Of a DNA stretch of 56,239 nucleotides, positions 21,777 to 34,165 are shown piece after piece (positions within the stretch are counted from its first letter, which is position 1; every line of letters starts with the position of its first letter). The stretch is from Sporosarcina ureae (GTDB lineage: Bacteria; Bacillota; Bacilli; Bacillales_A; Planococcaceae), in the NCBI RefSeq assembly GCF_029267015.1, contig NZ_JARIEA010000007.1:1-56239 (forward strand), given 5' to 3'. A program made the position numbers and the translations under genes. The notes below the pieces were generated by a model. The model did not search any database. It was not told the origin of the DNA and saw only the letters and a program-made list of their open reading frames with translations.

Positions 21777-21870
21777 GAAACCTGGTTCCAAATAATCCTT
21801 GTCTGGTTCATTATTGTTCGCGCCATATAATCGGGAACGCAATAAATATCTCACGTGTTGTAATCAAGGG
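21777..21870 (+). repeat. Ter-like site and orphan rtp-type upstream region, copy A
   Basis: TGGTTCCAAATAATCCT at 21783-21799 (24 identical bases with the rtp copy when extended leftwards) is followed 78 bp after GGTTCC by AATCAAGGGGGGA, a ribosome-site-like sequence. The same layout and spacing occur upstream of rtp (minus strand, 34066-34165). The core GTTCCAAATAATC agrees with most of the B-site half of the B. subtilis Ter consensus as I recall it (GTACYAAATNTTC). No intact gene follows; a few codons (DRYFMKRILF) faintly recall the RTP N-terminus. Confidence 0.7.
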
Positions 21871-22141
21871 GGGACAGTGGATCGATATTTTATGAAGAGA
21901 ATCTTATTTGCGATGTATTACATGTCATGATTCGAGTAAAAGGTTCGCTGTGCCACATTGACAACATGTACGTAAAACAGATTTTCTTATCAACTTATAC
22001 AATTTCATTTTCATTTATTTAAGGAAAATGATCAGTAAATGTAGCAACAAAAATAAAATACGAACATACAAGCGTTAAAAGTGATAGACTAAGAACGGTC
22101 TATATGTATCGGAAAGTCTATATGCTATGTGTAATCTTATT

Positions 22142-22236
22142 GAACATGGTTCCAAATAATCCTTATTCACATAATTTTCCTCGCATCATGATATCAAATA
22201 AACATCGACTATCCCACGTAAAGTAATCAAGGAGAG
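22142..22236 (+). repeat. Ter-like site and orphan rtp-type upstream region, copy B
   Basis: TGGTTCCAAATAATCCT at 22147-22163, then TTTCCTCGCAT, TATCCCACGTA and AATCAAGGAGAGGGA at 22225. This is 77 bp after GGTTCC, against 78 in the other two copies. It is diverged from copy A but keeps the order of blocks seen before rtp. No rtp-like gene follows. The stretch 21871-22141 between the two copies is AT-rich and holds only the GAACATAC block of copy B at 22062. Confidence 0.7.
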
Positions 22237-22306
22237 GGACTGCAAGTACATAAACAAACAAATAATAAGAAGTTCAATCAATTGCAAGGGAAAGGGTGAT
22301 CAAATA

Positions 22307-22408
22307 GTGGACGATAAGGTAATTGCCATGATAGTACGTGTCAAGAGTTTTAAAAGCGACAGGTCAATTAACGAATTCAACACGGAGTTAAAGAGAGACT
22401 ATAAATGA
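22307..22408 (+). CDS. Possible 33-codon small protein
   Basis: A GTG at 22307, weakly preceded by AAAGGGTG, opens a frame ending at TGA 22406-22408. The product is short, basic and soluble (VDDKVIAMIVRVKSF at its start, ELKRDYK at its end). It has no recognised family. It follows the copy B upstream region, so it may be a decayed or replaced gene under that promoter. The rest of 22409-22643 is AT-rich and shows nothing coding. Confidence 0.2.
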   Translation: MDDKVIAMIVRVKSFKSDRSINEFNTELKRDYK

Positions 22409-22643
22409 CTGGTTAAATTAAGCTGAGATAATGAGATCGATCATCCAGATGAAAAATGAAATATGAATCGCAGAGCAATCATAAAGCATTTTATAGTGTT
22501 TAGTTAAGAAAGCATTAAACAACACCTAAACATTAAAAACCTTGAAGTAAACTTGTTAAGTAATTATAATAAGTCTGGCGCATAAATCATTGAAAAAATC
22601 GCAAATATCTCACTATCGCAAGTATACTTCTAAGTGATACACA

Positions 22644-22671
22644 ACTTCCTATAATTTATATTATGTTCGGG
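22644..22671 (+). other. dif: dif-like XerCD recombination site
   Basis: A 28-bp stretch starting ACTTCCTATAA, with centre TTTATA, then TTATGTTCGGG. Compared with the Firmicutes dif consensus as I recall it, 22 of the first 23 positions match. The outer five bases of the right arm (normally AAACT) differ. It lies where coding strand bias flips from plus to minus and within the pocket between oppositely oriented Ter-like sites, as expected for a chromosome-dimer resolution site. Confidence 0.75.
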
Positions 22672-22719
22672 GCGTTCTACGATCTATATAGTTTCCATTC
22701 TCCACGTATCCTTCTCGCC

Positions 22720-23094
22720 CTAGCTTTCCAAGCGATTCTTATACTCTTTAGTCTTTATATCTTTGAAGTCGATATATCCTACACTGTACTCGATGACATC
22801 GTTAATGAACAACTTATGATCCTTAGCAAACTCTTTCACAGATTCAAGCAATTCTTTATCGTACGTTGTTTTATACTGAATTCGATCTGCTGGACGCAAA
22901 TTCTTATCGTATTCAATAACTCCTGCAGCCAATACATTCCACAAACCGTTTTCCAGCAAATAATTGCTATGTGTATTATGTCGCTCTGATAATTCCTCTA
23001 ATTTCTCTAAAATCTCCTGACTAATATTTGTTCGAAACTTAACTCGTGATTCATCTGTAGTTTGAATCATTCTACCACTCACTAATTTCCACAT
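22720..23094 (-). CDS. Double ribbon-helix-helix-like protein next to dif
   Basis: A 124-residue soluble protein with two similar units. Each has a short strand followed by two helices: RVKFRTNISQEILEKLEELS with HNTHSNYLLENGLW (about 17-52), and RIQYKTTYDKELLESVKEFA with HKLFINDVIEYSV (about 71-105). This is the pattern of tandem Arc/MetJ-type DNA-binding domains, but it is an inference from sequence pattern only. AGGAGG 8 bases upstream fixes the start. Its stop is about 50 bases from the dif-like site. Function unknown; some databases label similar short proteins inconsistently. Confidence 0.7.
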   Translation of the reverse strand: MWKLVSGRMIQTTDESRVKFRTNISQEILEKLEELSERHNTHSNYLLENGLWNVLAAGVIEYDKNLRPADRIQYKTTYDKELLESVKEFAKDHKLFINDVIEYSVGYIDFKDIKTKEYKNRLES

Positions 23095-33586: not shown

Positions 33587-33600
33587 TATAGGTAATCTCG

Positions 33601-33638
33601 AGACTATCCTAGAAACAATTTCTAGGATAGTCTTTTTT
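33601..33638 (+). terminator. Terminator of the ABC-F gene
   Basis: A perfect 15-bp stem, AGACTATCCTAGAAA (33601-33615) with its complement (33619-33633), has a 3-base loop and a T-run. Confidence 0.97.
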
Positions 33639-33695
33639 CGTTCGTACAAACTATATGAAAAAAAAGAAAAGCCGTAGCTCCTCTTTTCCTTTTTA

Positions 33696-34061
33696 TTATT
33701 TTCTTTTTTGCGAGTAGTTGTCTACTAACGCTCTGTTTAGTAACGATATGGATCGATCTAGTTCAAACTTGATTAAGTCTTTATACGCTTTCACCTTTTC
33801 TAGATCTCCTATACGGTAAATGTAGAGTGTCTGCATCTCCGTCCCCTGCTTATGAACCGGATGTCTAACAATCAGGCCGTCGTTAAGTAAATCATGAAGC
33901 GATTTATATACTTCAGACTTAGTCGGACGGTAACCAAGGTCTCTGAAATGGTCTAGAAGGTCATCTAATATTTGTAGACCATACAAGTTCCCCTCTTCTG
34001 CTTTATGTAGCATGTAGAGCTTCAGAAAAGCTCTCTGACGAATGACAAATGTACTCTTCAT
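33696..34061 (-). CDS. rtp: Replication terminator protein (RTP)
   Basis: A 121-residue winged-helix protein (B. subtilis RTP has 122) that as a dimer binds Ter sites and stops replication forks in one direction. Strong likeness to RTP as I recall it: IRQRAFLKLYML against VKQRAFLKLYMI; the recognition-helix region YRPTKSEVYKSLHDLLNDG against FKPNHTEVYRSLHELLDDG; and the dimerisation helix FELDRSISLLNRALVDNY against VELDRCKKLIEKALSDNF. Tyr27 in LYGL corresponds to RTP Tyr33, implicated in helicase contact. The fold is shared with PadR regulators, a looser alternative label. Shine-Dalgarno AAGGAGGGA. A Ter-like site lies upstream. Confidence 0.93.
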   Translation of the reverse strand: MKSTFVIRQRAFLKLYMLHKAEEGNLYGLQILDDLLDHFRDLGYRPTKSEVYKSLHDLLNDGLIVRHPVHKQGTEMQTLYIYRIGDLEKVKAYKDLIKFELDRSISLLNRALVDNYSQKRK

Positions 34062-34100
34062 TGATCTTCCCTCCTTGATTGCTGTACGTGTGATAGTTAT

Positions 34101-34109
34101 AGTATAGCA
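34101..34109 (-). promoter_or_regulatory. Extended -10 promoter of rtp
   Basis: On the minus strand TGCTATACT (TG-N-TATACT), about 40 bases before the rtp start, with no clear -35. The Ter-like site lies about 30 bases further upstream, so RTP binding there could repress its own gene, as in B. subtilis. Confidence 0.6.
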
Positions 34110-34140
34110 AATTATGTCGTGCGAGGAGAATTGTAAAGAA

Positions 34141-34165
34141 CTAGGATTATTTGGAACCAGGTTTC
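34141..34165 (-). repeat. Ter-like site upstream of rtp (copy R)
   Basis: The minus strand reads GAAACCTGG then TTCCAAATAATCCTAG. It shares 24 identical bases with copy A at about 21.78 kb and 17 with copy B at 22.15 kb, in the opposite orientation to both. By analogy with B. subtilis Ter polarity its blocking face would point to lower coordinates, towards the dif-like site. A further block, GAACATAC on the minus strand (plus 34198-34205), is also shared by all three copies. Confidence 0.72.

Follow-up and report, generated by a model that had tools for sequence, protein, structure and literature searches.

Does the chromosome of Sporosarcina carry, at its terminus, a replication fork trap of the kind known from Bacillus subtilis? 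The question is raised by a stretch of DNA of 56,239 nucleotides (the window; its source is placed in the S. ureae group), which an earlier note, made from the letters alone, had read as an RTP-Ter fork trap enclosing a dif-like site. RTP-based traps are described as restricted to few bacteria in three papers (PMC6549158, PMC10331603, PMC13220808), and the earlier note called them best known from the B. subtilis group. The rtp homologue that it had recognised on the minus strand is a member of the RTP family by several measures: its product scores 134 bits against the Pfam RTP profile (cut-off 26.7), matches solved B. subtilis RTP chains with E values of about 1e-30 (1.4e-30 for PDB 1f4k) and shares 45% identity with a fragment of B. 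subtilis RTP (alignment A1). The family is not limited to the B. subtilis group, as 62 of the 398 genomes in a class-wide survey contain an RTP match above the cut-off. Relatives of the protein carry the source annotation 'helix-turn-helix transcriptional regulator'.

Each of the three Ter positions of the window carries a bipartite site, with an A half and a B half spaced as in B. subtilis (Table 1). The 17-mer noticed earlier was recovered at 21784-21800 (+), 22148-22164 (+) and, with 1 mismatch, 34142-34158 (-), the left coordinates being shifted by one base from those first given; the two left sites and the right site in the rtp promoter are opposed under B. subtilis polarity and delimit the convergent pocket of about 12 kb that had been proposed. 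All 3 mismatches of the right Ter to the bipartite pattern lie in its A half, which is therefore weak. Both left Ters fall inside a 1.06-kb stretch without any ORF of at least 80 aa, and counterparts of 10 of the 11 pocket ORFs are found in the pockets of genomes G103 and G116, and of 9 in that of G140. Genome-wide (3.11 Mb), the 17-mer has 19 matches at up to 3 mismatches, namely the three window sites at 0-1 and 16 others each at 3 (a reversed 17-mer control gives 8). The earlier note had named many copies scattered without orientation bias around the chromosome as evidence against its reading; those found all carry 3 mismatches, and the bipartite pattern, with up to 3 mismatches allowed, is confined to the terminus. 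A 3-mismatch site at 32078 lies inside an ABC-F gene, and the identical 15-mer occurs in 8 of the 9 RTP-bearing genomes. That the three Ters are no more than AT-rich repeats without relation to one another, in a chance pattern, is scarcely conceivable: the motif is short, and the 4 matches of its 15-mer in the window when 3 mismatches are tolerated are not rarer than chance (11 of 100 shuffles reach 4), but 12 kb contain three exact 15-mers where base composition predicts 0.0075 for the whole genome, and the comparison of genomes given below refutes the idea.

Table 1. Features of the putative fork trap, in coordinates of the window.
Feature	Position	Strand	Remarks
Left Ter 1	21770..21800	+	A half and B half; about 844 bp left of dif
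Block X, left Ter 1	21818..21825	+	TCGCGCCA
Block Y, left Ter 1	21852..21869	+	CACGTGTTGTAATCAAGG; 4 mismatches to consensus
Left Ter 2	22134..22164	+	about 480 bp left of dif; would block leftward forks under B. subtilis polarity
Pocket between convergent Ters	22165..34141		about 12 kb; contains rtp and 11 other ORFs
Block X, left Ter 2	22181..22188	+	no rtp at left Ter 2
Block Y, left Ter 2	22215..22232	+	bin conservation
dif-like site	22644..22671	+	just inside left end of pocket; sole genomic match with up to 3 mismatches allowed
rtp, replication terminator protein, 121 aa	33696..34061	-	Pfam PF02334; PDB RTP chains; alignment with B. subtilis RTP
Block Y, right Ter	34073..34090	-	CACGTACAGCAATCAAGG; within rtp 5' leader in right copy
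Block X, right Ter	34117..34124	-	TCGCACGA
Right Ter	34142..34172	-	A half and B half; in rtp promoter, 83 bp upstream of start codon

The site at 22644, whose place agrees with the earlier note, we take, by comparison with the B. subtilis dif sequence, to be dif, the chromosome dimer resolution site, and recombination by XerCD there is predicted. An identical dif 23-mer is present in all nine RTP-bearing Sporosarcina genomes, and in the four of these that are complete the dif-dnaA distance is, by arithmetic, 50.4-52.3% of the chromosome. When dif was sought near rtp, with up to 4 mismatches allowed, in 48 named loci of 3-20 kb that reach no further than 10 kb to either side, it was found only in Ureibacillus thermosphaericus; the four named Sporosarcina in this search have dif just outside the 10-kb limit. 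Cumulative GC skew in the window is highest at 22512, at a distance of 132 bp from dif and within the pocket interval where the earlier note had proposed to look for an extreme, and the maximum lies at most 504 bp from dif in 13 of 13 genomes (fetched stretches). As a test of the trap this agreement does not discriminate: the skew flips equally sharply, within 140 bp of dif, in all four RTP-lacking Sporosarcina examined (G021, G066, G146 and G171), so that GC skew was rejected as evidence and gives the trap no support.

Within the genus (9 RTP-bearing and 59 other Sporosarcina genomes), RTP homologues and sites, which the earlier note had suggested looking for in relatives, co-occur. At up to 2 mismatches the bipartite Ter is found in 9/9 RTP-bearing and 0/59 other genomes; at up to 3 mismatches, it was present in 13/13 RTP-bearing and 0/7 RTP-lacking genomes of the first set given. 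All 27 copies in the nine genomes lie at most 12 kb from dif and converge on it, with 17 of 17 left copies facing right and 10 of 10 right copies facing left. The right Ter adjoins rtp in every one of the nine, and eight have both Ter groups, the remaining genome (G116) having the right Ter and rtp without a left Ter. A matrix trained on these sites scores them at 45 to 61 bits, with the next best position in the 40-60 kb scanned falling below -8. Their consensus, TTCTTAnnAAACCTGGTTCCAAATAATCC, combines a nearly invariant B half, a looser A half and a fixed spacing. With up to 3 mismatches allowed, the bipartite pattern revealed no distant Ters beyond the terminus of Sporosarcina chromosomes. 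The 15-mer at up to 2 mismatches has, among the matches listed, 8-19 occurrences in the nine RTP-bearing and 6-18 in seven RTP-lacking Sporosarcina genomes, and these loose matches were treated as background, although they exceed reversed controls in most genomes. One 15-mer match in G116 (1 mismatch, correct orientation, 0.31 Mb left of dif) lacks an A half. Because RTP is missing from most Sporosarcina genomes, the trap must be dispensable. In RTP-lacking G171, which retains the same gene order around the missing gene, no rtp remnant was found in the roughly 150 bp between the conserved flanking genes (G171 only).

Could the RTP homologue instead be a local PadR-like transcription regulator, with the GGTTCC sites as its operators and no fork arrest? 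The PadR profile falls just short of claiming it (26 bits, cut-off 27), the annotation of its relatives points the same way, one site lies within the rtp promoter, and the blocks X and Y described below are promoter-leader-like. Promoter-like sites at rtp number 3, against 2.8 in shuffles. We consider a regulator of this sort very unlikely, given that the left sites lie in the ORF-free stretch noted above, that an ordinary regulon is not expected to be oriented around dif as every one of the 27 copies is, and that the sites detected with the pattern used are terminus-confined in each RTP-bearing genome of the genus. Because the protein belongs to the RTP family, the sites converge under B. subtilis polarity, Ter and RTP coincide across the genus, and dif lies opposite dnaA, we conclude that the window very probably holds a chromosomal RTP-Ter fork trap of the B. 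subtilis kind, located outside Bacillus, with a diverged Ter and a compact 12-kb layout, as the earlier note had supposed.

By analogy with B. subtilis, the Ters of the window are predicted to bind RTP and to arrest forks in a polar manner. At each Ter, RTP dimers would sit on both halves, A and B. A fork meeting the B half first, the blocking orientation reported for B. subtilis in PMC13220808, would be held, and a fork meeting the A half first would pass. The two left Ters near dif would hold leftward forks, the Ter in the rtp promoter would stop rightward forks and probably also represses rtp, a putative autoregulation, and the opposed orientations would therefore allow both forks to enter the pocket and neither to leave. 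The B. subtilis trap (rtp, terI-terIX, dif) is alike in its RTP family, in a bipartite Ter with equal spacing and in having a Ter in the rtp promoter, and its layout, with rtp and terI at one pocket end, dif near terVIII at the other and opposed Ters, corresponds as well (PMC13220808). The two differ in the B half (GGTTCCAAATAATCC in Sporosarcina, GTACYAAATNTTC in B. subtilis), in the number of Ters (1-4 within 17 kb, versus nine over about 10% of the chromosome) and in the size of the pocket (10-12 kb, versus about 100 kb between terI and terVIII), and the Sporosarcina RTP falls in a separate branch. The rtp-Ters of three named Sporosarcina depart from the consensus published for B. subtilis, KMACTAANWNNWCTATGTACYAAATNTTC, at 7-9 of its 25 specified positions (the best match in the fourth lies elsewhere than the rtp-Ter). 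We did not treat that consensus as defining, since it is one of the B. subtilis group and intermediate Ter-like sites, with 5-6 mismatches to it, lie upstream of rtp in Metabacillus. The Tus-Ter system of E. coli works alike, its polar barriers around dif admitting forks and barring their exit, whereas its protein and sites are unrelated, an instance of convergent evolution according to PMC10331603.

A further feature unlike B. subtilis is found on the fork-facing side of the Ters. Each Ter is the head of a unit of roughly 100 bp, longer than the earlier note had allowed, that contains block Y and, with less certainty, block X, which precedes Y by 35 bp; both would face the blocked fork. Y is found within 4 mismatches in 26 of the 27 copies (the outer right copy of G196 matches poorly), and the X-Y spacing is 35 bp in all 27 best matches; genome-wide, the X-Y pattern has 20 matches, all beside Ters, and occurs in 9/9 RTP-bearing versus 0/59 other genomes. 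At left Ter 2 (8 genomes, G116 left out), pairwise identity is 0.89 in the bin that covers Y (22214-22233) and 0.49 and 0.31 in the next bins. The majority fraction of Y in the two left site sets is 0.96 and 0.90, dropping to 0.65 and 0.52 behind it, in rows whose anchoring on Y biases them slightly toward that block. In two of the three site sets, X shows no higher conservation than the sequence next to it (0.78 versus 0.78 and 0.76; 0.86 versus 0.87 and 0.85). Left intergenic patches at 21694 and 22054 are conserved as strongly as Y, or nearly so.

X and Y might be functionless relics of the rtp promoter and leader, duplicated along with the left Ters. The similarity of the left copies to the rtp leader extends as far as the Shine-Dalgarno-like end of the leader (z from 3.9 to 15.6 over 19 left-right pairs, 300 shuffles each), and a relic would suit the unremarkable conservation of X; it accords less well with the high majority of Y, the drop in the bins adjoining it at left Ter 2, the distinct common form of Y in the 500-bp left copies, and the presence of X-Y at Ureibacillus Ters without rtp. 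Each of these objections is weakened by the common ancestry of the nine genomes. Behind the left Ters of the window, no rtp remnant was recognised by eye. The Ureibacillus signal exceeds chance in two of three cases and is weak in the third, in shuffles that flatter X somewhat as its string there, CTCGCACCA, was chosen after the sequences had been seen. Among 13 Ter-like cores from other lineages (first core occurrence per locus), 12 were unremarkable and Metabacillus indicus gave 4/2000. On balance we think it somewhat improbable that both blocks are relics, and the sequence comparisons lean modestly toward Y at least being part of the terminator, where it would provide an additional protein contact, rather than a mere remnant of the rtp promoter. 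Tentatively, and with rather more doubt than belief, we suggest a composite terminator in Sporosarcina and Ureibacillus, in which RTP would sit on A and B and a second contact, which may come from additional RTP dimers or from a different protein, on Y and perhaps X, with the fork meeting Y first. If true, the fork would face a polar barrier in two stages, of a kind that has not been described for B. subtilis, and RTP-lacking sister species would be without the whole barrier.

Even a real trap could be a back-up for runaway forks, with forks usually meeting at dif by another process, and we give this nearly an even chance. The skew switches at dif with and without RTP, and the mutational bias of the pocket is of the right-arm type, which suggests that the pocket is copied by the leftward fork. 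In E. coli, the place of fork fusion does not depend on Tus, whereas in B. subtilis forks converge opposite oriC, and no longer at dif, once RTP is deleted (both from PMC13220808). By arithmetic, all four complete Sporosarcina genomes have the point opposite dnaA 3-63 kb past the right Ter; therefore the rightward fork is predicted to arrive there first and to wait. This prediction from arm lengths contradicts the pocket bias.

Beyond Sporosarcina, Ureibacillus and Paenibacillus-like genomes also have an rtp whose promoter contains a Ter-like motif specific to the lineage, with copies in opposite orientation at pair distances unlike those in Sporosarcina. Ureibacillus G010 has a convergent Ter pair 69 kb apart, the sites of G029 and G060 are on separate contigs, and the pattern search found no second Ter site in G046, where a match at 2466405 (3 mismatches, with a similar one in G029) was taken as chance. 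The Paenibacillus-like motif, CATATGAAAAATTCACAATA, has opposite-orientation copies about 0.45-1.5 Mb apart, and in all 8 such genomes tested the motifs suggest RTP-Ter traps.

The same kind of trap is thus very probable in Sporosarcina, and Ureibacillus and Paenibacillus-like genomes show signs of it. Each of the three has a Ter sequence of its own, so that such traps would escape a search based on the B. subtilis consensus. Block Y is a possible handle on polar arrest. Since the Ters, dif and rtp all lie within 12 kb, whether forks end at dif or at a Ter is directly measurable here, and Sporosarcina offers a natural experiment, in that one genus contains species with rtp and Ters and species with neither.

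The rtp homologue that an earlier note had claimed in the window (contig G000:C35, from an 86-contig genome of 3.11 Mb) is borne out by its database matches, and the three copies of a Ter 17-mer listed there were recovered (table). No further copy with fewer than three mismatches occurs in the rest of the genome, and 3 exact 15-mers are observed, all inside 12.4 kb, as compared to 0.0075 expected in the genome from base composition. The dif-like site proposed at 22644 is present and is the only match in the genome at up to 3 mismatches; together with the left Ters it lies inside a 1.06-kb stretch (21600-22660) that contains no 80-aa ORF. 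According to published work on B. subtilis (PMC13220808), the fork that reaches the B half of Ter first is stopped. The enter-not-leave polarity claimed earlier agrees with this rule as applied to the Ter orientations, as the left Ters would stop leftward forks and the right Ter rightward forks, and forks that come into the pocket of about 12 kb between them could not exit. Under the reversed polarity, both forks would be shut out of the pocket.

Location of rtp and the Ter 17-mer copies in the window
Feature	Position	Strand	Remarks
rtp, replication terminator protein	33696-34061	-	PF02334, 134 bits; PDB RTP chains at E about 1e-30
Ter 17-mer	21784	+	left copy
Ter 17-mer	22148	+	left copy
Ter 17-mer	34142	-	right copy

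The arrangement recurs within the genus. RTP status was taken from a search of 261 genomes of the order, in which 13 encode a full-length RTP scoring above 130 bits, nine of them Sporosarcina with the window genome included. When the bipartite Ter pattern (A half, spacer, B half) was searched in 68 Sporosarcina genomes at up to 2 mismatches, it was found in 9/9 RTP-bearing genomes versus 0/59 others, one of which (G039) has a weak RTP match of 23 bits that falls under the cut-off. A survey of 40-60 kb around dif in the nine genomes (15-mer with at most 2 mismatches) yielded 27 Ter sites, where the 17 left of dif all face right and the 10 right of dif all face left, without exception; the bipartite pattern, searched across whole genomes with 3 mismatches allowed, returned the identical set. 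The left Ters are located 467-536 and 784-964 bp from dif, with an extra copy at 5603 bp in G182, and the right Ters adjoin rtp, 9.9-11.5 kb from dif.

Alignment of the sequence behind the Ters revealed two extra blocks, X (TCGCAYCA) and Y (CACGTACAGYAATCAAGG), positioned about 33 and 67 bp from the start of the B half, respectively. Y is present with at most 4 mismatches in 26 of the 27 copies, all but the outer right one of G196, and the X-Y spacing is 35 bp in all 27, based on best matches to X and Y searched separately. When the X-Y pattern was run alone against the 68 genomes, with 3 mismatches allowed, it gave 20 matches, all adjoining Ters, in 9/9 RTP-bearing genomes versus 0/59 others. 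In G116 (G116:C1:125001-185000; L205, L071, L072), no left Ter was found by the searches around dif and genome-wide, and X-Y is likewise absent near dif; its rtp and right Ter would form a one-sided trap. At the rtp copy, Y sits in the leader and extends into a Shine-Dalgarno-like stretch, and it is possible that X-Y is purely a relic of the rtp leader. Between the left Ter copies and dif, no ORF in the window reaches 80 aa, and in rows anchored on Y its majority there is 0.96 and 0.90, as compared to 0.65 and 0.52 immediately behind. Among eight genomes, identity is 0.89 in the bin 22214-22233 and 0.49 and 0.31 in the following two; bins between the two left units reach 0.15-0.43, and other bins of the left stretch up to 0.5-0.7. 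Two patches outside the Ter units are about as conserved as Y: 21674-21733, which contains a terminator-like hairpin, and 22054-22073. The sequence CGAACATACA occurs in the latter (about 22054-22074) and again at 21671. X is better conserved than the adjacent sequence in just one set, the 500-bp left one (0.89 versus 0.76), and not in the other two. In Ureibacillus, where 2000 shuffles were made per Ter, X-Y was equalled or exceeded by at most 4/2000 at all four rtp-Ters and at two of the three Ters without rtp (third, 63/2000). Twelve of 13 Ter-like cores of other lineages were unremarkable for X-Y; the remaining one, from Metabacillus indicus, gave 4/2000. The favoured reading is that an ancestral rtp-leader unit was duplicated and that Y, and perhaps X, was then selected as part of a longer terminator.

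In RTP-lacking G171, the place of rtp is flanked by the same genes, with a gap of about 150 bp and no rtp between them; therefore, rtp together with its Ter is gained or lost as one small piece of a conserved terminus. This distribution may reflect either an old presence followed by losses or acquisition by transfer. In a tree built from 50 RTPs (37 of 48 named loci and 10 of 13 class loci tried; no Paenibacillus-like RTP passed the filter), Sporosarcina and Ureibacillus share a single branch separate from other RTPs (100/100). RTP homologues also occur on 16 plasmid records (from Bacillus, Paenibacillus, Priestia and Cytobacillus; e.g. NZ_CP076292.1, NZ_CP154897.1, NZ_CP048288.1), possibly a mobile reservoir analogous to plasmid-borne tus, and on three Brevibacillus phage records (phages Jenst and SecTim467; KT151955.1, NC_028805.1, KT151957.1). 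The phage proteins, annotated as putative replication termination protein or replication terminator, are 42% identical to the window RTP. In another genus of the family, a C-terminal RTP-like stretch (G035:C1:697869-698024, L033; 31.5 bits) with an internal stop codon is perhaps a dead rtp. Within the pocket, a 187-aa ORF (24199-24762, minus strand) found no counterpart by tblastn (1e-8) in any of ten relative regions; it may be a recent gain or not a gene at all.

Of 398 genomes sampled from the class, 62 have an RTP match above the cut-off, and named relatives come from Bacillus, Metabacillus, Domibacillus, Priestia, Heyndrickxia, Atopococcus, Ureibacillus, Paenibacillus, Saccharibacillus, Fontibacillus and one Neobacillus record. 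Read by eye, the region upstream of rtp carries a lineage-specific Ter-like motif in several groups, and no clear one was seen in Priestia. In a family called Paenibacillus-like from its nearest named proteins, 8 of the 14 single-contig RTP-bearing genomes were tested (G262, G423, G433, G553, G331, G394, G344 and G404) with the motif CATATGAAAAATTCACAATA, read from four of these eight; it is unlike the B. subtilis Ter motif. Each carries an RTP gene and 3-7 copies, and 34 of the 35 sites are convergent (up to 2 mismatches; 0 control matches), the single stray being in G394. Seven of the eight have a site no more than 400 bp upstream of rtp, and the point opposite dnaA falls inside the pocket in 8/8, with lengths known to 0.1 Mb. 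These genomes thus probably hold a fork trap 0.45-1.5 Mb wide. The motif upstream of rtp in Atopococcus tabaci (Carnobacteriaceae, L136), CACTATGTTCCAAATTCACAATA, looks halfway between the Bacillus and Paenibacillus-like motifs. Four Ureibacillus genomes (G010, G029, G046, G060) contain a nearly symmetric dif-like sequence (ACTGCATATAATNTATATTATAT...) alongside a clear dif, but replacing it in G010.

Galli et al. (PMC6549158) describe RTP-related sequences as not found beyond a subgroup of Bacillales. Listings of open-licence literature showed nothing on RTP-Ter for either Sporosarcina or Paenibacillus. Griffiths et al. 1998 reportedly worked on other Bacillus species. By all tests open to sequence, the window holds an RTP-Ter trap whose binding and arrest are predicted; its kind is already known, its host and sequence are new, and its build is probably new.

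Cumulative GC skew, computed on fetched stretches of 40-60 kb (400 kb for G140), peaks close to dif whether RTP is present (84-504 bp away, 9/9 genomes) or absent (54-139 bp away, 4/4). The skew check suggested earlier therefore places the terminus at dif but is uninformative on RTP. In complete RTP-bearing genomes, dif lies leftward from dnaA by 51.8 (G103), 52.3 (G116), 50.4 (G128) and 51.0% (G140) of the chromosome; in the G140 stretch, skew reaches its minimum 0.5 kb from dnaA. The point opposite dnaA is 62, 74, 14 and 33 kb right of dif, respectively, which places it 51, 63, 3 and 23 kb past the right Ter; if both forks moved equally fast, the rightward one would be the earlier to arrive and would be kept waiting at the rtp Ter. 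Where RTP is lacking (four genomes), this point falls left of dif instead, at 152, 99, 84 and 9 kb, a comparison of few numbers from related genomes. In Ureibacillus it lies outside the pocket by 22 kb towards rtp in G010, and on the dif side in G046. Intergenic skew in the pocket (-0.134) is near that of the right side (-0.114), unlike the left (+0.075), and coding third-position skew of its genes (minus strand 0.131, plus strand -0.044) fits copying by a leftward fork. The gene values are noisy, as flanking genes (-0.006 in the 15 kb left of dif; -0.062 and -0.003 just right of the pocket) deviate from the G140 arm averages for leading genes (0.110 and 0.099). The arm lengths, by which the rightward fork arrives first, conflict with both pocket skews, which suggest leftward copying. 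This puzzle is the dif-or-Ter question of Hendrickson and Lawrence, as described in PMC3317982, in a genus where species with and without RTP are both available.
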